18,018 nt of DNA from Terramyces sp. JEL0728 (taxonomy: Eukaryota > Chytridiomycota > Chytridiomycetes > Rhizophydiales > Terramycetaceae): contig JADIIU010000193.1 of NCBI GenBank assembly GCA_027603945.1, forward strand, positions 1-18,018, given 5' to 3'. Made by a program: the position numbers and the translations under genes. Positions within the stretch are counted from its first letter, which is position 1, and each line of letters begins with the position of its first letter. Positions 1 through 18,018 of the stretch are shown here, one piece after another. The notes beneath the pieces were generated by a model. That model had not been told where the DNA came from, searched no databases, and saw only the letters and a program-made list of their open reading frames with translations.

Positions 1-1
1 A

Positions 2-961
2 ATGAAATACCAAGTTTCTATTTCAAAAGTACAACGAACCGCTATTTTCTTTGTCGTAGTGTTGCTATCATTGGGTTTCTATTGCTCTTTTGATTTTACT
101 AGCAGGGAACAAATTGTTAAACATGAAGTACAGTTACGTGAACGCAAGATAGCTGGACCGATGGATCACGATTGGATTGTAATTTGCTCTAATATTAGCT
201 GGTTGCGAAGCACATTCTAGATAAAACTGCAAGCGTTGGCGTTCTCAGATATGGAGATGGCGAGTTAGCTGTGTTGGAAAAGGAGCCACTGACTTCAGAG
301 CAAGATAACTGGAAGTACAGTGGGGGAGCAGAGTCAATATTATCTGCAGATCTGGCTGACACGCTCGTTGGACACTTTGGAGAACCTATGTTTTGTAATT
401 TGCTTTAACCCAGACTGTTTTCCTGTAGATGATAACGTTGGATCGTTGAATAGCTACATGGCAATGACAGAACAACGCTTAGACTACATTTCATACGCCA
501 ATTTGTTTGTTAATTTCAATTACAAAAGGACAAAGAATCTGCTAAAGAAAATCCAAGAAGGAGAAGCAGGGGATGTAGTTATTTTTGCAAGCGAAGCCAG
601 CAAGCTTCATGCAGACACATTTACTACTCTAAAAGAATTTGTCCAGTGTCCAGACCACGGTTTGGAATGGTATGAATCTCACCACCAGGAAATCAAACAT
701 ACTTGGGACAGATTGGCAGCAGAATATACCAATACGCTGTTTATCTTATCTTGCGGACCTCTAAGTAACATTGCGGTCAATAGAATGTGGAAAACCAACA
801 AGCAAAACAGATATATTGATATCGGCTCTGCAGTTGATGAAATCTTGAAGGGAGAATCAACCCGGCCCTACACTGATGAAACCAGTTCCTACGCCGAGCA
901 ACTCGATTCTGCGTTTAAAGTAGTCAACGGTGAGGCAATTCTGCTTCCAAAATATTTTTAA
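2..961 (+). CDS. Membrane-anchored GT-D fold (DUF1792-like) glycosyltransferase
   Basis: Exons are 2-178, 199-394 and 414-961; the introns are 20 nt (GTAATTTGCTCTAATATTAG) and 19 nt (GTAATTTGCTTTAACCCAG). The joined frame gives 306 residues. Residues 13-30 form one hydrophobic segment after a short basic stretch, which suggests a type II Golgi/ER anchor. The domain begins with a RYGDGE motif (residues 76-81) and ends with SCGPLSNIAVNRMW, NRYIDIGSAVD and a TRPY segment, matching my knowledge of the GT-D family often called DUF1792. In that family the conserved acidic/Gly motif serves sugar-nucleotide binding; the donor and acceptor here are unknown. The first ATG is at base 2, so an upstream exon outside the window cannot be excluded. 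Both introns share their first ten bases. Confidence 0.8.
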
Positions 962-1022
962 TATAGAAAATTCATATTCTACAAAATATAGCTTATTTTG
1001 AACCTTTGGTACCTTCATTGCT

Positions 1023-1147
1023 CAGCCAAACAGAAATGGTTATTTTGGACCACCAGTTGATGAAAGTTTGAAAGGAAACCAAACTAGAACTGTGTGGGCG
1101 ATCTAACTAATGATACTAAACAATTGGATTCCCCATTCAAAGTTTAG
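1023..1147 (+). pseudogene. Decayed duplicate of the 3' end of the preceding glycosyltransferase gene
   Basis: From 1023 the frame reads QPNRNGYFGPPVDESLKGNQ then TR, parallel to KQNRYIDIGSAVDEILKGES then TR in the upstream gene (about 805-870). It stops at TAA 1104-1106. After a one-base shift the frame from 1106 reads TNDTKQLDSPFKV and stops at TAG 1145, parallel to the parent's AEQLDSAFKV. The copy thus holds an altered reading frame and two stops. No upstream domain of the copy is visible, so it is a partial tandem duplicate, not a gene. The rest of 962-1201 shows no other coding signal apart from a TTTATT at 1162-1167, which may be the poly(A) signal of the opposing sorting nexin gene. 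Confidence 0.65.
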
Positions 1148-1201
1148 ATGGCAGTACAAAATTTATTGGATAAAACATTGTTCAAAATAATTCAAATATA
1201 T

Positions 1202-3111
1202 TCATGTTGAAAAGTAACTTTCCCAGATCCTAAGGATATGCTTTTCAACAATACTAGACTTGAACAAGTAAGTTTGTACACTATCACACATATCTTTGAT
1301 TCTGCTATCTTTAAAGCTGTCCAACTCCTGCAAGAATTCCAGTCCAAGCTCATTAAAGTCGTTTTGTAGCTCGTTAAATTTGCCCTGCGTTTCTTTTAAT
1401 TGCGCTTCCGCTTCTTGTATTTTGTCTGTGCGGTGCTTTTGTGTTGTGTTTAGCTTGTTTAGCTGGTCCGTATGCTTTTGCAACGTTTGCTCCAATTGAT
1501 TCAATGAAGTTTGAAACTTTAATCGGATTTGATAATTGATTTTTATACAGCCAATAGTTCGCAAATGTTCCTGGATCTTCATTACTTGGTATTGTATTTC
1601 AACATTATTCTGTGTTAATTTCAAATACTTGTGAATCGAGCAACTCGGAGATTTCTTGGTGAATCCTCCCAAGTTTTAATATCTTCAAATTGCATGTGCC
1701 AGATATTTGTGTATCGCCCAACGCAACAAGCGATGAAGCCATTTCGCTGATTGCATTTGTATAATCTAATTTAATACAAAAGTACCTTTGCGCTGCTTGA
1801 CCAGAATATCGTACGATTTAGACAAACTCTTTAGCTGACTCTCCAACAGCAACAGCACTGCTTTTTTATCTTCAATTTGCTACATTATAAAAAAAAGTAC
1901 CTTGTCACTATCCGGTGTGCTTGGGAATGCTTGTATAGCTAACGGCGTAGTATCCTGCCCCAGTATATTCTTTTCAGTAAAAGCTTTCTTGTCAACACCA
2001 AATGTCTCCGACTCCAAAAAGAACCTCAGACTGTCATCCAGCTGTAGTCTGTGATGCAGTACAACTTTTTGTAAAAACTTTTCCAAATGATAGCGTCTAG
2101 ACTCGATAAAATCATCTTGGAATCTTCCTGATATTAAAATATTATACCCAACTGCAATTTCTCTGGGATTGGGGGTATAATAATACCTGGATATTTTGAT
2201 ATTAGCTGATTGTATAACCAAAAGAAATCGGAAAATCTCCGCATTACCGAAAATTCAAAATTTCGATACTTTGGATCGCTGGTTGCTGTAGTTACTCTAT
2301 ACTCCACATATCCACTTATCTTGTCTCCAACCTTCAATGGGTCCACCACATTTACCCGGAATTCATACATTTTTTTGGGTCTTTCCACGCCAACTTCTTC
2401 TTTTGGTGCTTCAACGTCACTCGAGATAGATACACTTAAAGGATCAAAGTTTGTTGGCTCTGGTTTGGATAATCGTGGGCTTTCGATTGCTGATAGAGTG
2501 CTTTTTGGTTCATAAACACTATAATCTGTAATTGAAGATTCCAATGGAGTGGGTTCTTTGATACTAGTGGCTTTTTCTGCCAATGCTGCCAGTGGAGTAT
2601 TTTCTTCGCTATTTGTTACTGGCGGTTCTTCCTTCTCTGGGTTTATTTGTAACGTATCAATTTCCAGAAGAGGGTTTGGGATGACATCAGAGGCAAACAC
2701 TGGTTCATTCACAGGTCTGGCAAAAGGATCCGGAATTTTGAAATCGAAAGCATCTGAAGCAAATGGAGACTGCACTGGTTCATCGAATTGGCTTTGTTCA
2801 TTATATTGCGGCTGAAATGGTGATTCGTTTAAAGGATCGGTTGGGAAACCTGGTTGGTATATACTTTGAAATGGTGATTCATGAAGCAACGTTTCTTTGA
2901 AAGGAGATTCCTGAAACCCGCCTAAAGGATCATTTTTCATTGTATCTTCCATTGGATCTTTCAGTGCACCAAAAGGAGAATAAGCGTCTACGGATGAAAA
3001 TGCTTTTGTTGGATCGATAATCGGTTTTTGTTTATCCGATTCGTTTTCCCCCCATTGATTCTCTTCCGTTTTCCACTCGCTGTCCTCTTGCCACGGATTC
3101 TGATTGAACAT
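1202..3111 (-). CDS. Vps5/SNX1-like sorting nexin (PX-BAR) of the retromer coat
   Basis: Exons run 3111-2148, 2127-1901, 1879-1786, 1765-1629 and 1609-1202; introns are 20, 21, 20 and 19 nt. The total is 1830 nt, 609 residues. Residues 1 to about 240 are disordered and acidic with many SPF/DPF triplets. The PX domain (about 245-370) shows MYEFRVNVVDP, the phosphoinositide-binding RRFSDFFWLYNQL, PPIPEK and GRFQDDFIESRRYHLEKFL; the first intron sits between PPIPEK and GRF. The rest is a charged helical BAR domain with a coiled coil near the C-terminus. Known role of the family: dimeric membrane-tubulating subunit of the endosome-to-Golgi retromer. The short DPF/SPF motifs resemble clathrin-adaptor-binding peptides (inference). 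Vps5 versus Vps17 is not fully resolved, but the PX basic motif favours Vps5/SNX1. Confidence 0.88.
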
Positions 3112-3360
3112 TTTTTATAAAGTCACTTTAACGGCAAACCATTTAAAATTATAATGGAAATCGACTTTCGGGGAGAATCAATTACTCTTCCAAGTAACCA
3201 TAGTCAAAAATCCCATAATTCGGACAATGAGTTATTTAAACAGGTTCGTCTTTAGCGATACTCAGATTCACTACCAGCCGATTTCATTGATCAACCAATG
3301 TTATTCAATTGGTTTCCATTCCACTAATTTTCAAGTTCAAAAAAATTTCAGCTCATCAGA
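3112..3360. promoter_or_regulatory. Divergent spacer between sorting nexin and polyprenyl synthase genes
   Basis: These 249 bp must hold both promoters. On the + strand an ATG at 3154 opens a 33-codon frame (MEIDFRGESITLPS...) ending at TAG 3253-3255. The same frame then stays open for 23 codons (RYSDSLPADFIDQPMLFNWF...) to TAA. I cannot justify an intron removing that TAG: the only local GT-AG pair ending there with a preserved frame is 12 nt and lacks the branch-like motif. It could be an upstream ORF of the synthase or chance. No clear TATA box or palindrome stood out. Confidence 0.35.
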
Positions 3361-4633
3361 ATGATACAACGTTTGTTCAAATCCCAATGGCAGAAATCTA
3401 TTTATAATGCAGAAAAACTAGTGCATTCAGGAAGCGGTACAGTAATCAACCCAAAGGAATTGCTGGGAAAAGATTTGTAAGCAATACTAACCATAGGTGA
3501 ATATATTTTAATATAGATCGTTATTGACAGACAATATTAGAAAATTATTAGGCTCAGGACATCCGGTACTTGAAACCGTATCCAATTATTATTTTTCAAA
3601 ACAAGGAAAGCACGTCAGACCGCTACTAGTATTATTGGTATCCCTTGCAACTACAAAGCAATTGAAAACTCAAGAGATTGACAAGCCATTGACGAATAAT
3701 AGTGGAATATTTTTCAAAGAGAGCAAAACAGAGTTTATTTTACCTACACAGCGCAGATTGGCAGAGATTACAGAGATGATTCATACTGCTTCTTTGTTAC
3801 ACGACGATGTAATCGATCTAAGTTTGACTAGAAGGTTCTTGGATTTAATATTAGAGGGGCTAATACTGCCAACCATGAATTTGGAAACAAGATGGCAATT
3901 TTAGCTGGAGATTTCTTACTCGCAAGGGCATCTGTCGCTTTAGCTCGTTTAAGAAACCTTCAAGTTGTAGAGCTATTAGCTACAGTGATATCCAATCTAG
4001 TTGAAGGTAACTTGGGTTAATTCCAGGTGAATTCATGCAATTGCGCAATAATTCCACCAATCCTCTGCAGAAATTTAACCAGTCATTACCGCCAGTATTT
4101 GTCAATGAAACTTTGGAGAATTCTTCAGATTTCCAATATTATATCGAAAAGACGTACATGAAAACTGCCAGTTTAATTGCCAAGTCTTGTCAGGCAGCAA
4201 CTATTTTAGGAGGATGCGATCAAGTCATAACTGATGCAGCTTACAGCTACGGGAGAAATCTCGGATTAGCGTTCCAAGTAAATACTGCTAACATTAGTTG
4301 GTTGATGATATGCTGGACTTTGTCGTTACAGAAAATGAATTTGGCAAACCCGTCAATGCAGATTTGTCATTGGGATTAGCAACAGCACCAGTCTTGTACG
4401 CAGCTCACGAATTCCCTGAATTGCTTCCATTAATTGAACGCAAATTCTCCCATGACGGTGATGTAGGAACAGCAAAAGAATTGGTGTTAAAAAGCAAGGG
4501 AATCGAGAAAACTAGACAGCTAGCCAAAGCCTATTGCGATGCTGCAATTAATGATATTCAGGTTCTGGAACCAAGTAGAGCTAGAACTGCTTTGATTGAA
4601 ATCACTGAGGCTGTATTAACAAGAACAAAATAA
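3361..4633 (+). CDS. COQ1: Mitochondrial polyprenyl diphosphate synthase (COQ1-like, ubiquinone side chain)
   Basis: Exons are 3361-3476, 3517-3834, 3855-4006, 4027-4277 and 4298-4633, giving 1173 nt and 390 residues. The first intron is 40 nt (two abutting 20-nt GT-AG units); the other three are 20 nt. Splicing restores both aspartate-rich motifs of trans-prenyltransferases: LLHDDVID at residues 133-139 and VDDMLD at 281-286. It also restores [21 protein letters not shown] and LVEGEFMQL, hallmarks of long-chain synthases. These bind Mg2+ and the allylic and isopentenyl diphosphates to build the quinone tail. The basic start ([16 protein letters not shown]) suggests mitochondrial import. A short insertion lies near residues 84-118. 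The stop codon overlaps an AATAAA signal. A heteromeric partner (PDSS2/Dlp1-like) is not in this window. Confidence 0.93.
3477..3516 (+). other. Tandem double microintron (20 + 20 nt)
   Basis: The break after codon 38 of the polyprenyl synthase is bridged by removing 40 nt, twice the size of any other intron here. The 40 nt split exactly into GTAAGCAATACTAACCATAG (3477-3496) and GTGAATATATTTTAATATAG (3497-3516). Each starts GT, ends AG, and has its own CTAAC or TTAAT branch-like motif 4-5 nt from the AG. There is no exon base between them. Removing only the first leaves TTG TGA, a stop; removing both gives GAT TTA TCG and the family sequence. Confidence 0.8.
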
Positions 4634-4634
4634 A
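4629..4634 (+). terminator. AATAAA poly(A) signal overlapping the COQ1 stop codon
   Basis: The stop TAA (4631-4633) is the middle of AATAAA, so the signal costs no extra 3' UTR sequence. The next gene's ATG follows within 26-74 bp. Confidence 0.55.
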
Positions 4635-4707
4635 ACGGTTATTATTAATCTTGAAGGCAATGCTCTTCTGGTATTCCTGTGGCCACTATTGGTTTCATTT
4701 TTTTCTC

Positions 4708-5157
4708 ATGCTGTCCAGCTCAACGAATGTCGAGAAACTAGCCAAAAAGCTACAATCGCTGGCAGAAGATGTATATTTCTTGCCGCAAGATTCGCTAGAT
4801 ATCCTATGGCAAGCATCGGAACAGGCAGAACTTGTAACGCTGCTGTCACAAGTAAGTTTAAGCGAATACGACGAACTTGTTCAAATACCATATCCAGAGA
4901 ACCAAGGAAGAGACTGGGACAGAGAGGATATATTAACATTGGATTCGTTGCTGAAAGATTCCAAGTATGATGTCAGTTCAATATCTAGTGTAATGGACAG
5001 AAATCTGCGGAGCATTGTGTTTAAAGGATGCGAATTGATTGCGCTTAAAGTAGATAAAGGATATACGCTGGAGCGGGCCTTTTCAGTCTACCTGAACAAG
5101 ATCACATCCAGCAATTATTTTGAGTATATCCGATATCGTAATTCTATAGGACTATAA
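4708..5157 (+). CDS. Unrecognised 149-residue helical protein with a SANT/Myb-like stretch
   Basis: I do not recognise this gene. From ATG 4708 (MLSSSTNVEKLAKKL) it has 149 residues and no intron. An in-frame ATG at 4660 would add 16 mostly hydrophobic/aromatic residues; I prefer 4708 because the extra part lacks the composition of the rest, but the choice is open. The N-terminal 50 residues look like helices rich in Leu, Glu and Gln. Residues about 72-115 (DWDREDILTLDSLLKD, then VSSISSVMDRNLRSIVFKGCEL) have the spacing of a degenerate Myb/SANT helix-turn-helix, with the later tryptophans replaced. It lies 74 bp after the synthase stop and 46 bp before the next ATG. AATAAA occurs at 5165-5170, eight bases past the stop. 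DNA binding is only a suggestion. Confidence 0.65.
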   Translation: MLSSSTNVEKLAKKLQSLAEDVYFLPQDSLDILWQASEQAELVTLLSQVSLSEYDELVQIPYPENQGRDWDREDILTLDSLLKDSKYDVSSISSVMDRNLRSIVFKGCELIALKVDKGYTLERAFSVYLNKITSSNYFEYIRYRNSIGL

Positions 5158-5203
5158 TCTGTACAATAAATATTTACTATTTGAATAAAGTTTTTTGATT
5201 TTT

Positions 5204-5823
5204 ATGCTGAAACAAACAAGGAAAACCCGAGAGTATTTCTACACCATCGATATCCACGGCCAGTTGTTTCTTGCAGATACGAAACACAAGAACTTTACTT
5301 CATGCTTCAAAGATCCAAAGTTTCTAAATTTCTTTTACAACCGACTCAAGAGAAACACTCATCGGTATACCAACTTGTTTCCTTATCTCTCAATATGCAG
5401 CAACGAAATCAACTATATCAGGCCCGCATTATGTAATTTTGATTAACTGCAGCACCAATTGTATTTCATGCGCTTAGACAAGACAATATGCTTTACGCGG
5501 GTAACTTGAGTGTGAAATTTGAACCGGAATTGGTTACTGTTAATAGCGATGGATATTTTTACTATCCATTTGACAAATCCAGTTATTATCCGCAGGACGA
5601 ACTCAAAGATATCGCATTCAAGAATGTTAATAATCAAGTGGATGATTGGGGGATCGAAGAGTATTTGGAAAAACTCGAAAACCAGCAAGAGCAGCGGGAA
5701 ATTATAGACGGCAAGTCTTTTGGGTTACTGAAATCGTCGTTGGTCTTGAACGAACTCGCTCCCGGTTTGGAGAATGAATATTTCATTTACAAAGGCAAAA
5801 AGTTTCCGTTCAACTGGATATAA
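5204..5823 (+). CDS. UPF0598 (C8orf82/DUF4505-like) conserved protein
   Basis: Exons 5204-5432 and 5453-5823 join across a 20-nt intron (GTAATTTTGATTAACTGCAG) to give 199 residues. Near the start it reads REYFYTIDIHGQLFLADTKH, then KNFTSCFKDPKFLNFFYNRL and a RYTNLFPYLSICSNEINYIRP block. These match the signature of the eukaryotic UPF0598 family that includes human C8orf82 (YFYYVD...GQLFL, KNFITCFKD). The downstream exon has LYAGNLSVKFEPELVTVN and GYFYYP, also typical, and ends in a family-like SSLVLNELAP segment. The family has no firmly assigned biochemical function that I can cite. ATG 5204 is the first in frame. The AATAAA at 5851-5856 lies inside the opposing FRG1-like coding sequence. 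Confidence 0.85.
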
Positions 5824-5824
5824 G

Positions 5825-5830
5825 TTTATT
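5825..5830 (-). terminator. AATAAA poly(A) signal overlapping the FRG1-like stop codon
   Basis: On the minus strand the final codons read TGC AAA TAA AC, so the stop TAA (5828-5826) sits inside AATAAA. It lies against the convergent gene's stop at 5821-5823. Confidence 0.5.
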
Positions 5831-6604
5831 TGCAGAATTTGTCTGGTTTCAATAAAGCTCTTCTGTTTAGCAATTCTTCATTCAACCTTCCATCGCGTTT
5901 AGCTTTTGCCAATTCATCCACACTCCTGGTTAGCGCTGCGAGTTCTTTCTTTCCAAACGAATGCATTTTTTCAAGTTTCTCAATCTCCAATGAAACTGCA
6001 CTCACATGCACCTTTTTTTCTATCCTGAATAAGTTTATTTTACCTGTGAACGTATTGCATCTTGATTTGAAATACCTCATTATCCGCTATATGCTCCGAA
6101 TCGCAGCGTATAGTGCCTGAATTGTAAGATAAATACTGTCCCCAATAATTCTGCAGTGCAAATCCATTCTTTTGTTTAATTACATTCCAGCTCTCTGCTG
6201 GTCCCACTAACTTAGCAATAGTTACCAGCTTCCATTTCGCATGATATAACTCCAAATTTATCTGACGATAGATACTTGTCAAAACAGTTTTTAAATGTGA
6301 ATTTGTTGTTTACTTGATGGACTACCCATACTTGGGAAGCTACCCATGGAACTGATGTTTCTAGTGGTAGCGGTACTGGTGGTTGGTCTTCATGCGGTAC
6401 TGGTTTAAATGAAACTCTGGTTGTTGATTGAACAGCGTTTAGCAAATTCAGATGGTGGATAATTACAGAAGGGCCGTTGATAGCTGCTGGTTCTTGACAC
6501 ACCATCCATCCTTGTTCTTCCTTTTCCTGTACTTCTTGTTTCTTTTTTGTCTTTTTCTTTGAGACTTTCTCTTGTCCTTTAAATTTCAATTTTGAAGTTT
6601 TCAT
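5826..6604 (-). CDS. FRG1-like nuclear/RNA-associated protein (fascin-like fold)
   Basis: Exons 6604-6226, 6206-6044 and 6024-5826 are joined across two 19-nt introns to give 246 residues. It opens with a lysine-rich segment (residues about 3-26), a likely nuclear/nucleolar localisation signal. GWMVCQE follows, then VPWVASQVWVVHQV, FDKYLSSDKFGVISCEMEAV, GPAESWNVIKQKNGFALQ and YWGQYLSY, the beta-trefoil-like core of FRG1. The end, LNEELLNRRALLKPDKFCK, matches the conserved FRG1 tail (LLDRR...KADRYCK). FRG1 proteins associate with nucleoli, pre-mRNA processing complexes and actin. A splicing-linked protein is notable in a genome with such small introns, but that connection is only context. A proline-rich insertion (PPVPLPLE) replaces part of the usual N-terminal core. 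Confidence 0.88.
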
Positions 6605-6657
6605 TCGAGATCAAAAAAGATTTATTGTATCAATCCGCCGGGCAGCCGGTTGGTGAA

Positions 6658-6738: not shown

Positions 6739-6743
6739 TTATT
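6738..6743 (-). terminator. AATAAA poly(A) signal overlapping the dehydrogenase stop codon
   Basis: The minus strand reads AAG AAA TAA AAT; the stop TAA is contained in AATAAA. A second AATAAA (minus strand, 6626-6621) lies about 113 nt downstream, so two polyadenylation choices exist. Confidence 0.45.
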
Positions 6744-7734
6744 TCTTGGAGATACTCCCTTGATACATTTTAAGGTCGGTGTTGGCGCCAGTTATTACAC
6801 GAATGATGTTGTTTACTTCAACAGGTAGGATTTTAAGTGCAGTCGAAAGTTTGGCATAGAACGGCAGGTGCACTTCTTGCCCTTGTCCGCTTTCTAGCAC
6901 ACGTATAATTGCGTCAACTACCATGCCAGTTTCAAGGACAGGGGTGAGGTACGGATACTGGTGTCCAACTCCAATAAACATGCCGGTATTAACCAACCCT
7001 GGATAGATAGTAGATACTTGAACCTGTCTAGATTTAGAGATAGCTACCCGAGTAATTCTTGTCGCAGAGATTCCATGTACCCGGTAACAGCGAATTTAGA
7101 ACAGGAATAGTCTACACTATAAGCAGCGCCAACAATTCCCATAACAGATGACACTGAAAGCTCGTTAAATATTGGTTACTAAGTGTCCCTTATTCCTTAT
7201 TAAATCCGGCAAGAACTGTTTCAGCAGGTAAAACTGTGCAAGAACATTGACTTGCATTGTCCGTTCAATCTCACTGATTTCTGCATCTTTAAACAATTTG
7301 GCATAAACTATTCCTGCATTGTTCACAAGGATTGTTGGATTTATTCCAGCGCAAACTTTTCTAATATCTTCATTATTTGAAATATCGCATTGCTTGAATA
7401 CTAGATTGGGATGGGCTATTGGGCATGGAGCTCTATCCAGTACAACCACCTTAGATCCGTTATCCAGGCACTTTTCAGCTAATAATTTTCCTATTCCATG
7501 TGATCCGCCTGTAATTACTATTGTCTGGTCGATCCATCTTACCGGTTTCCTTGTGAGGTATCTGTATAGCGATAGGGAGAATGTGGACACAGCAAATACC
7601 GAGCATATCATTGGGAAGAGGAAGCTGATTGGGATAAACGAGAGTGATATCCAGATGAGTGGAGAGAATACAATATCTAGAAATAACAGCGAGTATATTT
7701 TTTCCAGAACTGTATTCAGTTGGAGTGGTGTCAT
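6739..7734 (-). CDS. Membrane-bound short-chain dehydrogenase/reductase (SDR16C, RDH10/HSD17B11-like)
   Basis: Exons 7734-7180, 7160-7048 and 7027-6739 (introns 19 and 20 nt) give 318 residues. Two hydrophobic stretches at about residues 16-56 anchor the protein in the ER or lipid-droplet membrane. The Rossmann signature TGGSHGIG is at 75-82. The NNAG motif, SVSSVMG with catalytic Ser near 190, and YSCSK (Tyr203, Lys207) complete the active site. The frame across the second intron restores ELLGQVQVSTIYPGLVNTGMF, the typical PG-T-M segment. The family oxidises or reduces retinoids, steroids and other lipid alcohols with NAD(P); the substrate here is unknown. The ATG lies only 33 bp past the upstream transcription factor's stop, so its promoter must lie inside that gene or the two share a transcript. 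Confidence 0.88.
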
Positions 7735-7767
7735 GATTCAAAACTGGAAAATTTCTAAAATACAAAA

Positions 7768-9950
7768 TTAACTATATTGAAAATTCCAAAAATCAGGACG
7801 GCCGCCCATAGCAACATCTTGCAGCTTCAAAGCAAAGTAGTTTGCGGCAGGCCATACACCAGCATTCCTTAATAAACATGGTAGAATATTCGAGGTGATG
7901 ATCGATGATAGTTGGTTGGATACTTCCGTATTAACGGGTTCAGTTCTATGCGCTATCATGGCGCTTGATGCAATAATGAAACTGATCAAAGCAGACGTTG
8001 CGCAGGCATAGAGTGGCGAAGGAATATTTAGATTTAAAGACAGATTGTACAAGTTTTGCAAGTCGTGCTGATCATATGCAGATACTCCATATGGTGAATC
8101 GTTTGGATAGAGTGGGATATACCCGCATTTGTACATGAATTCAAGTGCCCTGACAGTTGCAAACATTACTTCTTTTGGTGTGTATATTTCCGGTTTGCCC
8201 GCATCCAGCGCAAACTTTTCAGTACACTTGTTTTGTACTAGAGGAAGGTGGATGTAGGTAAGAATAGCAAGATTCACCAGTAAACCGTCAATGATTTCCA
8301 CTGACAGTCTTGCCAACTGTGAAGGGATCTGATCGACTACTGTATTTGAAGGTGCAAACTGCTCCAAAGACGGGATCAGATTGAAACCATGTGGAATGGA
8401 ATGCAGCATAACAAGAATCTCGTTGTGCATCTCTTTTCCTTTCTTTCCAGCTTCAAATGCATTGGTCTTGAACTTTTGCGATCTGGAGAATCTAACAGCT
8501 CTTCGCAAATTCCGCATGCAGAATTCTTCTTTTTCTACAAAATCAAACGAAATCCCTGAAAAGTAGTGTCGAGTTTCATTTAGATCGTCAAACATTAATG
8601 CTAAATTGGATTTTTCCCAAATAGTGTTTTTGGCCAAATGAGTCTTTAGTTTTCGTTCCTTTGGCTGTTGGATTGGATGTTTGCTTCCAATAACCTCATG
8701 CAAATCAGGATAATTTGATTCATCCATCATGAATCCTGCGCCAGTAGCAATAGAAGCAAACGTATCTACCATCATTAGCATATTCCATAGCGCATATCGT
8801 TCTTTTCTGTCTCTCTTTGAAAGCGATTTTTCCTGTGCAATCAAGCTCTGATTTCCCATGATCGAAACCAAGTCATCTACTGTAATCATAGAGTTATCCA
8901 GAGAATCTGAAAAAGTCATTGGGTTGAAAATATTCTTTGCTTGTCCTTTCTGGAATGCTTCTGAAATAAATGTAATGGCTTCAGCAGTTTTGCCGATACA
9001 AAACAGTGAAATTGCATGAACCAGACATGCTCTAATATCGTCGTACGCTTCCTGATGTGATTGGGCTGCAATATCAACATTTGAAGTGATGTGTATTTTA
9101 TACACTTCTGCTACCCTTAGTCGATCAGCAAACGTAACAGTCCCCAAATTTCCAAATAACTGCGGATGGTTTGAGACAAAAACCGCATGGTAGAACAATG
9201 CATTCTTTAGCTTGTGTGACAGTTGAATATCCCTATATTAACGTCTAGTACCTCGAAGCTGGGTGAACAAGTCGCTCTTCAGAGTCAAAAGTACTTCCGA
9301 TATAAAATAACGATGTCAGTGAAATCAAATGATTTTCCAGGTCGTCTTCATTTGAAAAAGTAGGCGAGAGCGGAACAATGCTGATTGGTGTGGGCATGAA
9401 AGTTTGAGATTGCTTGGGTATAAATGTATTATCAGTAAAGAATGCTGCATTAGTAAATCGTTACATAGATCAGGCTCCATGAATCCTGCACTGAAATGAT
9501 TGCTTGTCTGATATCCACTGCCCAAATAACTCTGTTTCTGATGCCCCATGCGATGATTATTGTGCATTTCCGATGGCGAGAGCACTTTTTCAGTTGCAAC
9601 AAGTAAATTCTTTACCCGTTCATCCACAGGTGCTTGTACATTCGTCTGCAGCTGAGTCAAAGGTTTCAACATTGCCTCGACACTTTCCAATCTGGATAAT
9701 AATGCTTGAGAGAGTGCGGCTTGGTTGTTTCTATGTTAATATTTGCCCACCTTACAGCAGGGCCTTCTGAATATCCACACTGGGCAGCTCCATCTCTATG
9801 TTTTCTTGATGTCTTCAAACATGGAGAGCATATTGGTCGTACACCATCGCACTGTGGTTAATTTTGAATTACTTTTCTTTTGCGCAATCGGCATACATCA
9901 CATGCCTGCTTGGGCCGCTTTGTTGCAAGCTGTGGTGTATTCATATTCAT
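7768..9950 (-). CDS. Zn2Cys6 binuclear-cluster transcription factor with fungal regulatory domain
   Basis: Five exons (9950-9873, 9851-9751, 9730-9465, 9444-9252, 9232-7768) with introns of 21, 20, 20 and 19 nt give 700 residues. The zinc cluster is ACDVCRLRKRKC then DGVRPICSPC and a sixth Cys: residues 17, 20, 27, 34, 37 and 51. The last spacing is 13 residues, longer than the usual 6-8. The first intron falls exactly before Cys27, splitting the cluster between exons. Residues about 75-100 (SQALLSRLESVEAML) look like the dimerising coiled coil of this class. The long last exon holds the helical fungal_trans-type middle region, including LYNLSLNLNIPSPLYACATS. Such proteins bind CGG half-sites and activate metabolic genes. 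A CGG-N10-CCG site lies about 110 bp upstream, and an amino acid permease is the next gene. Confidence 0.9.
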
Positions 9951-10024: not shown

Positions 10025-10060
10025 AACCTGCCACCCACGAGCTACATACAGATGCAATCA

Positions 10061-10378: not shown

Positions 10379-11944
10379 TTAGTATTCAGCAGGCGAGAGG
10401 ATAGCTTTATCCGACGAAACAACTTCAGATTGGAATTTAACCTTGTGGTACACAAACAACCCAATAAAAAACGGCACGCCGGAAAAGGTAACTACAAACT
10501 GCAGGATTGGATTGTCGGACACTATAGCTGCGTATCCTTGTGCACAAATAATTGCAATCCCTAATATAATCGCAACCACTGGGCCAGCAGGATAAAACGA
10601 CGACTTGTATACAAGCACACGCAAGTCTATAGATTGCGCTTTAAAGGCTTGTCTAAATCTAATATGAATAACTGCAATAGATATCCAAGTCAGTATACCT
10701 GATACGCCAGTAATACTAATTAAATAAGTAAACACTTGGCCATCTCCGAGCACTATTCCAAGAAAAGAAAGGCAGCCAATACCAACAGTAGCTAATAAAC
10801 TATACAGCGGCACGCCATTATTAGTAACTTTGCCAAATACAGCAGGGGCTTTTCCTTCTTGCGCCATAGCCATCAATGTTCTGGAAGCAGCATACAATGC
10901 CGAATTGCCAGCACTAAGAACAGCCGTAAACACCACACCATTCATCAAATGTGCCGCGAAATTCATCCCTGCTTTCTGAAAAACAAGTGTGAATGGCGCT
11001 ACGGTAATATCATTTGATATTGACGCATTCAACAGATTAGGATCATCGTTCCTAATAGCAAGCCCCATTACAAATATCGAGCACATGAAAAAGAATCTAA
11101 AATGAATGGATATTTACGTTATCCGCCAAAAAGTATTTTTGATTGCCTTGGGTATAGTAGTTTGAGGATCCTTGGCTTCGCCAGCAGCAATTCCAACCAA
11201 TTCAGTGCCGCCAAAAGAAAAGAAAGCCATCAAGAATACATTGAATATCCCAACTATTCCATTTTTAATTGGCGCACCTTCAATATCCCAGTATTTGAAC
11301 CCAAGATACCCTTCAGACCCAACGTATCCCAAATCCAAAACAATTCCAACAATAATAAATAGTATAATTGCTAGTACTTTTACTATTGCTAGCCAATACT
11401 CTGATTCTCCAAATCCTTTTGCTCCAAAACAATTCACAGCGAATAAAAATGCCAATATGATAATAGCTGATATCCATGTTGGTATATTTGGCATCCAGAA
11501 TGATAATATCATACTTGCTGCGTTAATTTCAGAGGCTAGTATTAGCTTAATGTACGAAATGAGACGGCCCACTGCAGCCAATAATTCCAGCCTAGTGAAA
11601 ATCCTAGTGCTGGATGTACGAATCTACTAGCATAAGTGGTAAATGATCCAGAGACAGGCAAGTACGTTGCCAGTTCTCCAAGAGAAGTCATGACAACATA
11701 CACCATTACTCCAACTATTCCATATCCTATTAAAGCTCCTAATGGTCCTGCTGATGATATAGTTGCTCCAGATGCAATAAATAGTCCCTATACATCAAGA
11801 TAAAAATACAGTCCCAATAGTTCCCTAGTTTTAATTTTACAGTACCCCAATAGCAATCATTTGTATATGGCGAGATGACAACTGTCTTTCTATCTTTGGA
11901 AGCGATGCTATTTCCACATCAGTTAAAAGTGGTGTGGTTTCCAT
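10379..11944 (-). CDS. Yeast-type amino acid permease (APC superfamily, YAT family)
   Basis: Exons 11944-11846, 11824-11810, 11787-11556, 11535-11118 and 11096-10379 give 1482 nt and 493 residues; introns are 21, 22, 20 and 21 nt. The second exon is a 15-nt microexon coding GTIGT, which completes the family's GGTIGTGLFIASG motif in TM1. AVSFPSEINAASMI, FGESEYWLAIVKVLAI, SFGGTELVGIAAGEAKDP and AGNSALYAASRTLMAMAQEG are further YAT hallmarks. About twelve hydrophobic segments are visible. The N-terminus is short (about 30 residues before TM1) and the C-terminal tail ends SPAEY. It is a proton-coupled plasma-membrane amino acid importer; specificity cannot be read from sequence. AATAAA begins two bases past the stop (TTTATT at 10371-10376). 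Three GATAA motifs lie upstream. Confidence 0.93.
11810..11824 (-). other. 15-nt microexon of the amino acid permease
   Basis: AGTCCCAATAGTTCC on +, read on the minus strand as GGA ACT ATT GGG ACT (GTIGT), flanked by a 21-nt intron (11825-11845) and a 22-nt intron (11788-11809). The five residues are among the most conserved in the permease family, so the exon cannot be skipped without loss of function. Confidence 0.85.
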
Positions 11945-12031
11945 TTTTTTAAAGTTTAACTTTTGCTTACCTAATGTTGACCGCTTATTGCGAAATCACA
12001 AAGGATCAAATTTTCCGCAGGGTTTAGAAAG

Positions 12032-12059
12032 GATAACTACAAACAAAAGATAAGGATAA
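12032..12059. promoter_or_regulatory. Cluster of three GATAA motifs upstream of the permease
   Basis: GATAA on the + strand at 12032-12036, 12049-12053 and 12055-12059, 88-115 bp before the permease ATG (11944, minus). GATA factors such as Gln3/Gat1/AreA are known to act through GATAA pairs at fungal nitrogen-permease promoters. The cluster also lies just past the NDPK stop, so it may also fall in that gene's 3' region. Confidence 0.45.
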
Positions 12060-12089
12060 CTTGAATTCAGATGATAGACTTTATTTAGC

Positions 12090-12827
12090 CTAGTTTTGAG
12101 AAATAACCCATTCAGCATTTCCAACTATTTTTAATTTAAGCTTACATTCCCAGTCATAAACTTCATTAGATCCAAACCACAATGGGATCTCAATGTTGGC
12201 AGACTCGAAACTATCACTTCCATGGATAATATTACGACCAACAGAGATACAATAGTCACCTCTGATTGTGCCTGGTTCGGCTTGAAGCGGGTTGGTAGCG
12301 CCAATAATGCGTCTTCCTTGCTTGATAACATCAGGACCTATATTAAAAACAAGCACCTTCCCAAACCATAGCAACAACAGGGGCTACGGTTAAGATGAAA
12401 TACCTCTTCCTGAAGTCATGTAATCAACTAATCCTCTAAAGAATGGTCTTGATTTCAAATCAGCATAGTGGACTTCAGCTAAAGCGCGGGATGGAACAAC
12501 AGCTTTCAATCCAACCAATTTGTACCCTTTTTCTTCAAATCTTTGGATAATCTTGCCAACCAAGCCTCTTTGAGTACCATCTGGTTTTACAGCAATAAAC
12601 GTACGTTCGACTCCACCTTGGACACCAGCATGTGACCTTACCTCAACTTTAACTGCTGGTTTCTTTGCATCAGCCAGTAATGGGGATTGCTGAGCTAGGA
12701 TTGCAGCTACCAAGACACCTGTTCCGACAATTGCACCAAGTCTCATTTTGGTTTGTTGCTTTGGTATAGTGTGTTGTGATCTGGTTTGCAATCCAGATCG
12801 AAGTGCTTTGGTGAACTGCTTGAACAT
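12090..12827 (-). CDS. Mitochondrial nucleoside diphosphate kinase
   Basis: Exons 12827-12404, 12383-12357 and 12337-12090 (introns 20 and 19 nt) give 232 residues; the middle exon is only 27 nt (PVVAMVWEG with split flanking codons). About 75 residues precede the catalytic domain. They comprise a basic presequence-like start ([19 protein letters not shown]) and a hydrophobic segment (about 30-46), suggesting import into mitochondria and possibly inner-membrane anchoring. The kinase domain shows [51 protein letters not shown] and [10 protein letters not shown] with the phosphorylated His at 189. It exchanges phosphate between NTPs and NDPs; topology resembles NME4-type enzymes (inference). 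An AATAAA (TTTATT at 12080-12085 on +) starts four bases past the stop. A CACGTG E-box lies at 12859-12864, about 30 bp upstream of the ATG. Confidence 0.93.
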
Positions 12828-13194
12828 TTGATTTCCTGGAGAAAATTTTCAAGCCAAACACGTGCAAAATAGCTATGGATTCAATTGTATCTATAGGTGA
12901 TTGGGAAGTGATTGGCATGAAAATAATTTCGGTATATAGATGCGAGTTACCACACTAGTTGTTGGAATCTGGTCAAGTTTGTGTTCAAAACAAGTTTCAT
13001 CTCCAACTTGTACAAAAAAGAAGTTGAGAGGATTCTAACCCAATTCCATTGATTCTAACCCAATTCCTATTGATTCTAACCCAATTCCTTTTGATTCTAA
13101 CCCAATTCCTTTTGATTCTAATCAAAATGGTCACCTGCCACACTTTCAAAAGGAGAATGGCTGTTGAAAAGACTTTCAGGGACCTTTATACTTT
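12828..13194. promoter_or_regulatory. Divergent 367-bp spacer between NDPK and the DUF3712-like gene
   Basis: This spacer carries both promoters. A CACGTG palindrome (12859-12864) lies 32 bp before the NDPK start; CACGTG is the bHLH (Cbf1/Pho4-type) site. A minisatellite (13031-13113) is listed separately. A 27-codon + strand frame from ATG near 12874 is not convincing. A TATA-like TTTATACTTTATG stretch runs into the ATG at 13195. Confidence 0.4.
13031..13113. repeat. Four-copy 20/21-bp tandem repeat (minisatellite)
   Basis: Units start at 13031 (20 bp), 13051, 13072 and 13093 (21 bp each), with a partial GATTCTA at 13114. The shared core is GATTCTAACCCAATTCC followed by a variable 3-4 base tail (ATT, TATT, TTTT, TTTT). 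The last two units are identical. Spacing of about two helical turns would place a bound factor on one face of DNA. The core contains CTAACCC, a telomere-like heptamer, but the array is not telomeric. Confidence 0.9.
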
Positions 13195-14538
13195 ATGACA
13201 TTTGAAAAGGAAAAGGGATATCACATTTATACGGATATAGACGATAAAATAGAGCCAAAAGGATGCGTTGATTGGTGGGTTGGCCCAAGAGAATTAAGAA
13301 AACGCTATTGTGGAAGGAGAATGACTGGATGCCAATTCTACTGCTTGAACATCTGCTCATTCCTAGCAATCGCATTCACTGCGGTATTTCTTGTTGTTTA
13401 TTTAATTGTCATTCCGAATGCAATTCAAACTCAAATTGGATCAGGTTCGGTCGATGCAGCGACTATAAACACTTTGAATTTCACTGATGCTACAAATGCT
13501 TCCACTGGATTCTATGTTGATATGGTAATCAAGAAACCCTCATTTGTGCCTGGTCATATCATTCTCTCTGGGCCAACTGAATTCCATTTGGGCGACCCAG
13601 ACAACTTTGGGGATGGTTGCGCTGTACTGCTGATCAATCATACAATCACTGTATCGACATTTGAAGATACTCCATTAGGAATCCTTGGGAATTTAACCAT
13701 TACAAATATGACTACAATGCAAAATATTCTGGCTGGAAAGACAAATTTCAAATTGGGAATATCTACTTCATGGACTATTACTTATTGGGGTATCCAGTGG
13801 TACAAGAGCCTCAAATTACACTCTGTGTACAATATGAGTCCTGATTCACCTTCATTTGCATTTTCAGTAAATTCCAACCCTTTCCCTAAAGCAATTAGAG
13901 CAGATAACCTTAGTGATAGATGTTTAACAATAGACCAAGCGATTAAGAACGATTATAATACCAGTCAATTGATTACGCTTGGGCCAGGACTGCCAGATTT
14001 GTATTTGGATGAGCTTGTGCTCGATGCGTATGATGGCTCGAAACTAGTGTTTAACACTACTGCTTCATTCGAAAACCCGATGAAGACTCAAATGAATCTA
14101 AGTTATATGGAAGTATCTCTTGGTGCTCAGCAACCATTAATGACGGTAAGATTGGAAAAGCAAGGCAAGGGAAATTGGGAATTGGCGTACCCATATGGAT
14201 TGATATTCCGAAAAAGCATAATGACTGTGCCGATAACTGTCACCCTAACCTTCCTTGAGCCGCAAAAAGATTTCATGTCTTCGCTTACTTTTCTTGGCAG
14301 CGCATTCCAAGCCGACAATTCAACGCTTTTTGGGCCATTCAATATCATCCCACGATCCAGTGGGTTTATCTTTGGTCAAATATCTCAAAATATGCAAATA
14401 TCGTTACCGAAAGGTAGTATCCTTACTGCATTGGATCAATTCAAGAGTATTTTAGCGGAAGCATTGGCTACCAAATCGCAAAAGGATAGCAGCAGTGACA
14501 TTATGAACATATTATCGCAAATATTTAGCAACCACTAA
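13195..14538 (+). CDS. Type II membrane glycoprotein, DUF3712/LEA2-like
   Basis: A single intronless exon codes 447 residues. A 48-residue cytosolic N-terminus with Trp/Arg-rich DWWVGPRELRKRY is followed by a membrane segment (about 49-74) bounded by cysteines 46, 50 and 54. The large outer part has at least ten N-x-S/T sequons (NFT, NAS, NHT, NLT, NMT, NTS, NTT and others), which indicates passage through the secretory pathway. The IKKPSFVPGHIILSGPTEFH region and the repeated beta-rich pattern resemble the fungal DUF3712 family of vacuolar/cell-surface proteins related to LEA2 domains; some bind lipids, but the function here is unknown. The C-terminal 40 residues are helical. It is the only long gene in the window without an intron. 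AATAAA overlaps the last base of the stop. Confidence 0.7.
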   Translation: MTFEKEKGYHIYTDIDDKIEPKGCVDWWVGPRELRKRYCGRRMTGCQFYCLNICSFLAIAFTAVFLVVYLIVIPNAIQTQIGSGSVDAATINTLNFTDATNASTGFYVDMVIKKPSFVPGHIILSGPTEFHLGDPDNFGDGCAVLLINHTITVSTFEDTPLGILGNLTITNMTTMQNILAGKTNFKLGISTSWTITYWGIQWYKSLKLHSVYNMSPDSPSFAFSVNSNPFPKAIRADNLSDRCLTIDQAIKNDYNTSQLITLGPGLPDLYLDELVLDAYDGSKLVFNTTASFENPMKTQMNLSYMEVSLGAQQPLMTVRLEKQGKGNWELAYPYGLIFRKSIMTVPITVTLTFLEPQKDFMSSLTFLGSAFQADNSTLFGPFNIIPRSSGFIFGQISQNMQISLPKGSILTALDQFKSILAEALATKSQKDSSSDIMNILSQIFSNH

Positions 14539-14543
14539 ATAAA
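14538..14543 (+). terminator. AATAAA poly(A) signal at the stop of the DUF3712-like gene
   Basis: The stop TAA is 14536-14538 and AATAAA begins on its last base. The helicase gene's first possible ATG is 27 bp further. Confidence 0.5.
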
Positions 14544-14614
14544 CCATTGGTTCTGGCATTTAATGTACTATGAGTCATTTATATATTTTTTGTCCAGAAA
14601 TTTCAAAGTTAAAA

Positions 14615-16994
14615 ATGAACTTGATCAGGAAATTCACAACGCAAGTCATCCAGCAACTCGAAACTCAACACCCTTTTAGAAACACCACCCACAGTTTATC
14701 GTCCGAACAGGAGCGGATAATATATTCCCCATTCAACAAGAATTATATTGTAACTGCAGGCGCAGGAAGCGGTAAAACACTTACAATGCTGAAACGAGTA
14801 GAATGGATGATTGAAAACAAAATACCAGATGATACGATAATGATAACTACGTTCACGCACCAGGCAGGTGAAGAGATCAAGTACAGATTACAAGATATCC
14901 TAGGTGATCATAAAATCAGAGTTGGAACATTTGATAGTATAAGTCAGAGCATAGTACGGACTAGATTCGGTAACCAGAATCTACATGTTGGAGAATACAG
15001 CAGCAAATATCTTGAACTAATCAGATCAGAGAATATTATGCAGCAATTCAAGTATATATTTGTAGACGAATTCCAAGATATAAATGATTTGCAGTTTCAA
15101 ATAATTAAAGAATATTATAATACGGGCTGCAATATATTTGGCGTTGGGTATTTTTTGTTAATTTAGGGACGCTGCTCAAAATATATACCAGTTTAGAGGG
15201 TCGAATCCAAAGTATATGCAAAAGTTTTGTGAGATTTTCAAAGATTCGGAGCATCTTGCTTTAACTACCAACTACCGATCCACTGGTGCGCTTGTTCAGT
15301 ACTCGAATGCTGCCAGGCCGTTTATATATCCAGATTGCAAAATGACTGCTAGTAATTTACATGGAGAGTATATACCATCAGTAATGTTTTTCAGTGCTGT
15401 CGAGGAACAAAACCAAGCTGTGGTTGCTTATATTAACGAAATAATTGAAGAGGGCACACCGCCAGCAGAAATAGCCATCCTCTGTCCAATCAACCATCCG
15501 TTATATTTGATGGAAGAAACACTTGAAAAGAATGGAATCAGAAATGTAATGCTGGAGCGATTCGACATCTTTCAGAGTAAAAGATTAGACGGTCATGTAT
15601 GTCTCAGCACCATTCATAGATCAAAAGGGCTCGAGTGGGATGTGGTTATCATGATTGGCATGTCTGACGATATTATACCCAAATCAACTGAAACTGGATC
15701 GATCGAAGAAGCGAAGCGATTATTTTATGTTGGAGTAACTAGAGCTAAAAAGAATCTAAATATTTGTTTTTCGTCAAAGAAAGCGCCGTCGAGATTTATT
15801 ACAGAAATTAGTCCTGTTTTGTTTGAAAAGAACTATGATGAAACTGATAGTATCAAGAAATCGACAAATGCCCGGCCGAACGTTGCATATACCAGTCTAG
15901 ATGGAATTTTACAATCCATTACCGTTAGTGAATACCAGCAATTGCGTGAAAATGATATTCTACCAGACATTTCAAAAATCACAACCCAGAATCTATTCAA
16001 ACCAGCTTCTTATGATTCAATAGTACATAAAGATCATCTGTACGAAGATTTTGCAAAGTTTATCGAATGCTTTGTGTTAAGGTCGATTTCAAGGGTTTAC
16101 AATTTACAAGACAGCAAGTATGATCAAGTGGCCATGCAGTTGCAATCAGTAACACCAATTTCTCGTAGAACGTTTGATGTATACCACAAAAGATATGGCG
16201 AAATCACTTTATTGATGGAAAAGCACTACAAGGAGTTTTGCAACAGTTCAAAAGGCTTGAAGGAAAGTCTGGCGCAGATTTGTGAAAAAGAACAGATAGC
16301 CATGTCCAAACCGGATTTAAAAAGTCTCGCTTTAGCTGTTCAATCTATTGTTACCAAAGCGGAAAAGTACAAGATACCATGGAAATCTGTCCAGCTTATC
16401 GATTCTAAATTGAAAACCAATCCAGAAAGTTTATTCTTGGAAAGACTTTGTGAAAGTCTTGAAACATATGGGGATTACAGTATACCATCTACTAGAGCGC
16501 TGGCAGCGATATGGGATATCTCTCTCTGCTATTCAATTTTATTCAAGCAACGTAATCGAATGCTGTACAAAAAAGTAAATGGACTGCAAATGTATGAATC
16601 TCACAAGAAGATGTTTGTTGGTTTGACAGAGGTATTCCTCAAACAGATCATCAACGATAATAATGATCTGGGTACACCAGTCAATCAACTAATCCAATGC
16701 AGTATCCCAATACATATACCCAACGCGCCGAATATAAAAGGTATTGCGCCAATCAGGAAGAACGACACGTTGATTCAAATCAGCTGTTCAAGCAGACAGG
16801 CAGTTTCTCCAGAAGTTATTCTTGAAATGCTGACGTACAAGTCGGTAATGGATGGTATCAACAAACTGGCCGTTCTCAATCCAATCACTGGCGACTACAG
16901 CGAACTCGACGTGTCTGATTGGGATAATGGCGATTTATTGATAGAGTTTTTGATTAAAAGGTCAAAGGCGGGGAATAGATATAATAATGTATAA
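14615..16994 (+). CDS. UvrD/Rep-family SF1A DNA helicase with long C-terminal region
   Basis: Exons 14615-15147 and 15167-16994, joined across a 19-nt intron (GTATTTTTTGTTAATTTAG), give 786 residues. An in-frame ATG at 14570 would add 15; I prefer 14615 because it starts an amphipathic basic segment (MNLIRKFTTQVIQQL) that could target mitochondria, as in yeast Hmi1. Motifs: Q motif LSSEQERII (28-36), Walker A GAGSGKT (49-55), Walker B VDEFQD (150-155), GDAAQNIYQFRG (178-189, split by the intron), NYRS (213-216), STIHRSKGLEWD (325-336) and RLFYVGVTRAK (362-372). Only about 110 residues separate NYRS from the next motif, so the 2B subdomain is reduced. The last 415 residues lack helicase motifs; residues about 710-770 resemble a PD-(D/E)XK nuclease core without its charged residues. 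It unwinds DNA 3' to 5' by family; the exact role is unknown. Confidence 0.9.
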
Positions 16995-17106
16995 ATAGTA
17001 ATATACCACTAGCACAGTTTGTCGTGCATCTGCCAAATTGAGTTTTAACCACTCTCTACCAGAAGCAGAAAGTGTCTAGCAGCTCACCGTAAAGTACACA
17101 ACCAGA
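16995..17106 (+). promoter_or_regulatory. Short spacer between the helicase and the MLKL-like gene
   Basis: 112 bp with no gene or RNA that I can support. It must carry the helicase 3' end and the next promoter. No consensus AATAAA occurs here; GTATAAATAG overlapping the helicase stop is the nearest match. Confidence 0.3.
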
Positions 17107-18018
17107 ATGGTATACGAGGCACAAATCGCGGGTGAAACGGGTGGCACATCAAAGGGTACTGGGAATTTTAACAGGGAGAATTTCTCGACTCATTAGAATG
17201 AGCTTTGACGAATTAGAAGGGAAAGTATTGGATGGGGTTCAGAATCTCTTGGATACAAAATCAAAAGTTGAAGATGCCGCTTCCAAAGCCATTGATTTGG
17301 CCAAGCAATGCAATAATCCAATGATTCAAAACACCATCAATATCGTCCAATCTGTCTTGGATATCGGTAATCAAATCCCATATGTCGGCCCAATCTGCAG
17401 CGTCTTGACAGTAATCCGTTCTAACAAAAGTTTATTATTCAAATAGAAATAAAAGCAAGAGAAGCCGAGTCCAAATGTACGGACTTGGTAGAACGAATCA
17501 ATTTCATGGTTGGCCATTTGACTGCTTTGGAACATGTTGCTGTCATTCCCGCTACCGAGCTTGTATTGCAAAAGATGGACCAGGTGCTAAAAGATGCAGC
17601 AACTGTCATCCAAACCTATAGAAAGCAGAGTAAGATTTCCCGGAGATTGAACCTTGGAAATAAGGATAAGTTCCAAGGCTGCTTTACGAGCATCGAGAAA
17701 TGCTCTGCAGATTTGATGTTTAGTTTGCAAATTCATCAAACGCACAAGCTGGAGGAATTGAGCAAGAGAAAGGAAGACGCACTGGACTTGGAGGCGGAAA
17801 AGTTTATCAAGGAGCACGGTGGGATTGAAAACATCAAGGTGGGTTTTAATTTAACAGTAGAATAACAAAGAATTGGTCAAGCAATTTGCAGCCGAAACAA
17901 AATTGACAATCGACGATAATGTCATGCAAGAATTAAACTCCAATATTAGCTCGCTGCTCATTGAAAATCAAGCCGCGATGGAAAACATCCTGAAAAAGAA
18001 CTTGAGCACTGAAATTTC
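17107..18018 (+). CDS. MLKL/HeLo-type helical-bundle protein, 5' part (runs off the window)
   Basis: Exons 17107-17155, 17175-17410, 17431-17838 and 17861 to beyond 18018, with introns of 19, 20 and 22 nt; about 283 residues are visible. After MSFDELEGKVLDG come helices leading to IPYVGPICSVLTFIIQIE, then KCTDLVERINFMVGHLTAL, LVLQKMDQVLKDAATVIQ and SRRLNLGNKDKFQGCFTSIE. This order (Gly-Pro helix, L..R.. helix, a loop, F..C helix) is the N-terminal four-helix bundle shared by MLKL, RPW8 and fungal HeLo/HeLo-like proteins. A charged coiled coil follows. In fungi such bundles usually precede kinase or NLR-type domains and act in membrane-directed cell death or incompatibility; the effector part lies outside. 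The start is uncertain: ATG 17107 needs the first intron, while ATG 17198 does not. The 22-nt intron has a tandem AG acceptor. Confidence 0.75.

Follow-up and report, generated by a model that had tools for sequence, protein, structure and literature searches.

How small can a spliceosomal intron be in a fungus, and in what steps can it grow? The question is raised by an 18,018-nucleotide (nt) stretch of DNA (positions 1-18018 of one contig, hereafter the window) from a 15.0-Mb chytrid assembly (231 contigs; GC content 0.39), whose genes are repeatedly interrupted by GT-AG segments of about 20 nt. We conclude, with a probability of roughly 0.92, that this Boothiomyces-like chytrid would carry U2-type introns in a single size class of 19-22 nt, with tails at 17-25 nt, and that its larger introns would be trains of such units placed end to end.

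The window was resolved into 13 gene models, 11 of them with introns (Table 1). These comprise 28 single GT-AG segments and one abutting pair of 20-nt segments (3477-3516), giving 30 units of 19 (8), 20 (15), 21 (5) or 22 nt (2). The initial annotation of this sequence had described the same number of single segments of 19-22 nt, the 40-nt double unit and eleven intron-bearing genes, all of which the written-out models reproduce; its size split for the singles (9/13/4/2 in order of length) differs from ours (8/13/5/2) by one boundary choice. Also as it had stated, the spliced coding length is a multiple of three in all ten complete multi-exon genes, none of which has an internal stop. When units were retained one by one, 29 of the 30 broke the frame or introduced a stop. 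Pfam domains were recognised in eight of ten window proteins searched together and in the DUF4505 gene, searched separately, and the spliced nucleoside diphosphate kinase (NDPK) aligns with solved structures, with a two-residue insertion beside its first junction. The automatic model had proposed 38 window introns, eight of which (128-148, 920-966, 3231-3335, 4613-4656, 5124-5190, 7216-7196, 13913-13933 and 17156-17174) were discarded by hand because they fuse adjacent genes, overrun a plausible gene start or end, or delete in-frame sequence.

The length class stands out even when no gene model is used. Within the window, GTR...yTAAy...AG segments of 19-20 nt number 23, against 3.7 in shuffles, and at every length from 23 to 60 nt there are at most four. 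A genome sample of 200 kb from 20 loci outside the window contains 81, 88 and 40 such segments at 19, 20 and 21 nt, where the reversed sequence gives 38, 28 and 28; other lengths give about 20. The least biased evidence is provided by a frame-only gene finder, which used codon bias and GT/AG with a uniform length prior of 15-150 nt and no branch-site term. It placed 125 GT-AG introns of 19-22 nt in the 20 loci, compared with 27, 13, 17, 16 and 15 for the control pairs GA-TG, GC-AG, CT-AC, GT-AC and CT-AG, respectively. Above 22 nt, GT-AG introns average 2.25 per length and the control pairs 2.49-3.34, and single longer introns thus seem rare. The tiny introns extend genome-wide, beyond the window.

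A refined finder that combined a site model with a learned prior on length identified 364 introns in 125 genes of the sample, 330 of them at 19-22 nt; 109 of the genes contain introns and 16 are intronless. Nearly all modelled introns sit within a few nucleotides of one length, as in the uniform ultra-short classes of nucleomorphs, heterotrichs and mikrocytids. A rough extrapolation from 330 per 200 kb over 15 Mb yields approximately 25,000 introns in the genome. A first gene-finder run that lacked a site model had produced false introns and small false genes. As a check on the outliers, proteins were printed for 10 models with a score above 40 and an intron longer than 26 nt, plus one from locus L061. 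Three long introns were rejected as model misplacements, in the L061 protein (which we take to be a MARK-type kinase), in Cbf5 (L015, Pfam-supported) and in an L010 protein that presumably carries a KH motif; other long modelled introns look like joined genes.

The introns share a tightly constrained anatomy. Of the 346 introns measuring 17-24 nt, 292 have A as their third base; 184 use TAG as acceptor and 90 use CAG. In the 18-23-nt range, 263 of 342 introns contain a TRAY branch motif (shuffled expectation, 0.226); within these 263, the branch adenosine is nucleotide 14 or 15 in 227 and is followed by 5-6 nt in 221. T is the commonest base in the spacer upstream of the branch site, and the 5-6-nt tail downstream leaves no room there for a polypyrimidine tract. 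GT/AG at restored frames beyond chance, together with a branch motif whose distance from the acceptor is constrained, is as expected of U2-type introns.

Three candidate introns of 20-21 nt with the branch motif in place appear to end in TG. One is in the presumed MARK-type kinase gene (L061:2854-2873, the same in the copy L062) and two are in L015, in Cbf5 (L015:438-458, plus strand, junction in DKCLD) and in phosphoacetylglucosamine mutase (L015:4628-4609, minus strand, junction in AMG1_III). As a class TG acceptors are not clearly enriched, with 11 uses against 9.2 expected when all acceptors were allowed at a penalty; their score gain per frequency ranks first of 15, close to TT (1.56 vs 1.54).

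Spliceosome genes are present in the same assembly and contain introns of the same kind. U2AF65 scores 251.7 bits when read across its introns, under the family cut-off of 310.3, and has a spliced model of 440 residues, and its homologs carry RNA-binding domains. SF1 (66 and 43 bits), Prp8 (PROCN, 774 bits) and a canonical U2 small nuclear RNA (snRNA; 140 bits, GUAGUA element intact) were also identified, and the U2AF65, SF1 and Prp8 gene models themselves hold 19-20-nt introns. Since U2AF65 is present, the small intron size is not tied to its loss. Of the components that the initial annotation had named for inspection, U2AF (as U2AF65), SF1 and U2 were thus located, and U6 snRNA was looked for and not found. 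Two covariance matches to U6 reached 27 bits against a cut-off of 44 and were rejected; the match in L029 falls within a gene model, across a 21-nt intron, and L030, which holds the other, is a 98.9% copy of L029. U6 may be divergent or split, or the assembly may lack it.

Junctions were further assessed against profiles of 118 COQ1 and 118 U2AF65 homologs from which Boothiomyces and Globomyces had been excluded. Spliced COQ1 scores 626.7 bits, compared with 21.6 when the abutting pair is retained, 185.7, 300.9 or 427.8 when one of the other three introns is retained and 117.8 when all are; each shifted boundary lowers the score. For U2AF65 the spliced score is 528.8 bits; retaining intron 2, 3 or 4 lowers it to 82.0, 112.0 and 465.4, respectively, and with intron 1 retained no profile match was reported.

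The spliced proteins also agree with annotated proteins of relatives. COQ1 is identical to an annotated Boothiomyces macroporosus protein at 377 of 390 positions (97%) without a gap and shares 72% identity with Globomyces sp. JEL0801, the next matches being mostly other chytrids. U2AF65, encoded on a different contig, matches that of B. macroporosus with 93% identity across 93% of its length and that of Globomyces pollinis-pini with 65% identity. These proteins place the source genome in or next to Boothiomyces, which is classified in Terramycetaceae, Rhizophydiales, Chytridiomycota. Our U2AF65 model has 11 residues more than the annotated B. macroporosus protein; Globomyces has them too, so the annotated protein is probably short there. 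The same annotated protein (P0121) carries an extra ribosomal-protein-type domain (PF17136) in front, and in L031 the gene matching this front domain is a separate model just upstream of U2AF65; the B. macroporosus annotation is probably a fusion.

Because annotated B. macroporosus proteins fit the spliced models, annotation pipelines have accepted such introns. This raises the question of whether the small size is already familiar to annotators of Boothiomyces and Globomyces and new only as a description. The ungapped fit of COQ1, the largely matching U2AF65 and the alignment of Globomyces U2AF65 (at the protein level only) speak for this. We consider it doubtful, as our literature search, which left subscription journals mostly outside and supplements unread, found no description of tiny fungal or chytrid introns, and the available parts of PMC5364385, PMC13391722 and PMC6733946 give no such intron size.

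That the segments are never spliced from RNA, and instead reflect assembly artefacts, translational skipping or DNA-level removal, seems very improbable. It has some room because the case for splicing is made here from genomic DNA. Against it, the segments carry donor, branch-site and acceptor consensus with fixed spacing, their enrichment is specific to GT-AG relative to five other dinucleotide pairs, spliceosome genes hold them and annotated proteins from another assembly agree across junctions.

Near-identical copies within the assembly offer a view of intron length change. Three segment pairs (C111/C199, C30/C33 and two stretches of C44) share 98.4-98.9% identity and represent either uncollapsed haplotypes or segmental duplications. 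In the first (98.9% identical), two introns differ by 1 nt (21 vs 20), with no indels across 2331 aligned exon bases and three that are intergenic. Alignment ends aside, indels in the other two pairs fall only outside modelled genes, and one gene is modelled differently between copies. Intron differences of 1 nt without exon indels suggest that these segments tolerate frame-changing length change, on the strength of two events only.

The abutting pair in COQ1 proved to be the smallest kind of a newly noted class, trains of abutting units. The initial annotation had recognised the 40-nt double unit and missed its membership in this genome-wide class. In the 200-kb sample, a SIKE family gene (L024) contains six consecutive units of 21-23 nt and L016 contains two, which by rough extrapolation gives perhaps 150 trains in the whole genome. 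When the whole genome was searched for a TAG|GTA joint followed by two complete units, 24 places yielded 39 matches and the reversed pattern yielded 4; with units of 30-34 nt there were none, against 7 reversed. A stricter pair pattern requiring two TAAC branch sites, which is too strict for a census, found nine pairs (two identical in sequence) and none reversed. We then parsed 20 stretches covering 22 of the 24 places, along with the first sample, which supplied L024, and the window; the place on C15 was excluded. Parsing used a branch-site score and dropped trains with any unit outside 15-27 nt, leaving 34 trains of 128 units, with 2-7 units and 38-158 nt per train. In ten train-bearing proteins chosen for looking conserved, a Pfam domain spans at least one train junction in nine; the train of the remaining one, a Vms1-like protein, falls outside its Pfam domain. 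Separately, L052 (C128:21400-22900) has several closely spaced trains, on both strands and with as many as seven units, some of them identical; the gene models of this locus are uncertain.

How would a train be removed? The main rival to separate excision is that single tiny introns are real and a train is removed in one step, from first donor to last acceptor, its units being a duplication scar and the whole an ordinary fungal intron of 40-160 nt. Introns of 38-158 nt, the lengths of the parsed trains, are of a size handled by the standard fungal spliceosome. Duplication does occur, as identity exceeds 80% for 15 of 94 neighbouring units, and the train of a proteasome alpha subunit gene (L044) contains three identical 20-mers. 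Yet the other 79 neighbours have diverged to 80% identity or below, and the branch motif, which one-step removal does not need, is in place in 24 of 31 non-redundant, non-last units defined by pattern only (17% expected; p = 4e-13). Among all pattern units the motif is present in 37 of 47, compared with 56 of 309 GTA..TAG segments of 30-34 nt. The absence of joints at 30-34-nt spacing and the lack of a mean excess of GT-AG introns above 22 nt also argue against one-step removal, which we regard as unlikely. Retention of the branch motif in non-last units suggests that train units are probably excised separately.

These features can be accommodated by a model in which a fixed block of approximately 20 nt is recognised. 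A typical unit opens with a GTA donor and continues with a T-rich spacer and a yTAAy-type branch site, whose adenosine is nucleotide 14 or 15; the AG comes 5-6 nt further on. Following standard splicing logic, donor and branch site would be recognised jointly, as a single block, and the AG found at this distance would be used, which could explain both why single introns have one size and why larger ones are multiples of it. Trains may be born when a unit is duplicated in tandem, a step that calls for no new site, and its copies then diverge; they would retain AG|GT joints. Each unit would keep its own sites and be removed individually; with complete sites in each, the order of excision need not be fixed. 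In the strongest form of this model, the spliceosome would remove only units of about 19-23 nt, and introns could grow only by whole-unit duplication into two to seven or more mini-introns, separated by exons of zero nt and excised singly, so that intron length would come in steps of about 21 nt. We lean towards this form by a narrow measure, and it is weakened because the units tested for the branch motif are non-last rather than strictly internal: the TAG preceding them may be exonic.

Several observations count against the reading of one splicing-competent size class, beginning with the fact that splicing is deduced from DNA. The TRAY motif is not in place in 79 of 342 introns, nor is the branch motif in 7 of 31 non-last train units. 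The refined length distribution relies on a learned prior and hence, unlike the frame-only test, is not independent, and 17 of its 364 introns exceed 25 nt, several of them, though perhaps not all, being modelling errors. Retaining the NDPK intron at 12145-12125 is harmless to the frame, making it the least certain intron of the window, and homology does not fix the edge of U2AF65 intron 1 to the exact base (a shifted boundary scores 529.0). Finally, U6 snRNA was not found in the assembly by covariance model, core pattern or a 97-nt query, the last of which had no positive control, so that its empty result shows nothing. Taking these points into account, the initial proposal of near-uniform, spliceosomal-type introns of 19-22 nt in a fungus is supported by the window, the 20 other loci, the branch motif and the spliceosome genes.

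In recursive splicing, which is known from long animal introns, AG|GT joints regenerate a donor and the intron is removed stepwise. The trains share such joints, with a donor directly behind the acceptor (39 matches, compared with 4 reversed; 34 parsed trains), and their removal would probably be stepwise as well. They differ from the long animal introns in that each step, if removal is stepwise, would take about 20 nt. Recursive splicing with zero-length exons is treated in the available part of PMC5126111. Fungal stwintrons, in which an inner intron splits the donor, branch site or acceptor of the intron enclosing it, resemble trains as intervening sequences of more than one U2 intron with consecutive excision and a proposed origin involving duplication (PMC7138796, as available in part); they are nested, whereas train units parse as complete abutting GT...AG segments of one length, up to seven in a row. 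Our literature search, with subscription journals mostly outside it, found nothing describing such trains among abutting or zero-length-exon introns.

Uniform tiny introns themselves have precedents elsewhere, described here from the available parts of the cited sources. Chlorarachniophyte nucleomorph introns, of 18-21 bp, are likewise numerous, close in length to those described here and confined to a narrow size class, and belong to a relic endosymbiont nucleus with about 300 genes rather than a 15-Mb fungal genome; no trains are mentioned in those parts (PMC10245619; PMC4035089). The heterotrich ciliate Stentor has uniform U2-type introns of 15-16 nt with a fixed branch adenosine, a 5-nt tail and spliceosomal RNAs present, and differs in its loop of 10-11 nt (14-15 here), its weak branch consensus (yTAAy here) and its share of intron-bearing genes (18%, compared with 109 of 125 models here) (PMC9505925). 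Mikrocytids also have uniform tiny introns, of 16-17 bp, but are parasites with 224 introns and a reduced spliceosome, whereas the present genome has many introns and retains U2AF65 and SF1 (PMC10245619). Introns of the ciliate Paramecium are similarly short, with a narrow distribution around an optimum length (median 24-25 nt; range 15-100 nt in P. bursaria), and the part of PMC12862383 available mentions no trains.

The remaining features of the window are listed in Table 1. The gene at 17198-18018 matches MLKL_N with an E-value of 1.7e-7; this four-helix domain is known from cell-death proteins. By eye, a tandem repeat of 20-22 bp (GATTCTAACCCAATTCC...) can be made out in about five copies at 13030-13125, upstream of an intronless gene at 13195. 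An Rfam search of the window gave no match.

Table 1. Gene models of the window and the introns placed in them.
Feature	Length (nt)	Position	Strand	Basis or remark
Gene 1, without Pfam family		2..961	+	gene model
Gene 1 intron	20	179..198	+	
Gene 1 intron	19	395..413	+	
Vps5-like sorting nexin gene (PX, Vps5)		1202..3111	-	Pfam, gene model
Vps5-like gene intron	20	2128..2147	-	
Vps5-like gene intron	21	1880..1900	-	
Vps5-like gene intron	20	1766..1785	-	
Vps5-like gene intron	19	1610..1628	-	
COQ1 gene (polyprenyl synthetase)		3361..4633	+	Pfam, homologs, profile score, gene model
COQ1 intron, unit 1 of two-unit train	20	3477..3496	+	
COQ1 intron, unit 2	20	3497..3516	+	AG|GT joint, zero exon between
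COQ1 intron	20	3835..3854	+	
COQ1 intron	20	4007..4026	+	
COQ1 intron	20	4278..4297	+	
DUF4505 (UPF0598-like) gene		5204..5823	+	Pfam, gene model
DUF4505 gene intron	20	5433..5452	+	
FRG1-like gene		5826..6604	-	Pfam, gene model
FRG1-like gene intron	19	6207..6225	-	
FRG1-like gene intron	19	6025..6043	-	
Short-chain dehydrogenase gene		6739..7734	-	Pfam, gene model
Short-chain dehydrogenase intron	19	7161..7179	-	
Short-chain dehydrogenase intron	20	7028..7047	-	
Zn2Cys6 transcription factor gene		7768..9950	-	Pfam, gene model
Zn2Cys6 gene intron	21	9852..9872	-	
Zn2Cys6 gene intron	20	9731..9750	-	
Zn2Cys6 gene intron	20	9445..9464	-	
Zn2Cys6 gene intron	19	9233..9251	-	
Amino acid permease gene		10379..11944	-	Pfam, gene model
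Permease intron	21	11825..11845	-	
Permease intron	22	11788..11809	-	
Permease intron	20	11536..11555	-	
Permease intron	21	11097..11117	-	
NDPK gene		12090..12827	-	alignment to PDB chains, gene model
NDPK intron	20	12384..12403	-	two-residue insertion vs PDB chains adjoins junction
NDPK intron	19	12338..12356	-	
NDPK intron	21	12125..12145	-	in frame, stop-free, least certain
UvrD-like helicase gene		14615..16994	+	Pfam, gene model
UvrD-like helicase intron	19	15148..15166	+	within GDAAQ motif region
MLKL_N-like domain gene		17198..18018	+	Pfam, gene model; truncated by contig end
MLKL_N-like gene intron	20	17411..17430	+	
MLKL_N-like gene intron	22	17839..17860	+	19-nt variant 17839-17857 also AG-ended

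So far, ciliates, mikrocytids and nucleomorphs have been the main settings for asking about minimal intron size and spliceosomal size sensing. A fungus retaining U2AF65, SF1 and Prp8, with introns of one size, would move the size question beside the standard fungal models and provide a natural test of the smallest intron that the splicing machinery can remove. It is the train class that is new; judging from public B. macroporosus proteins, pipelines already accept the size class. Such genomes will be misread by gene-prediction and read-mapping software whose minimum intron is set above 20 nt. From the trains one could read how introns grew through tandem duplication, and they would test intron definition naturally, each joint being a choice between the unit and a longer intron.

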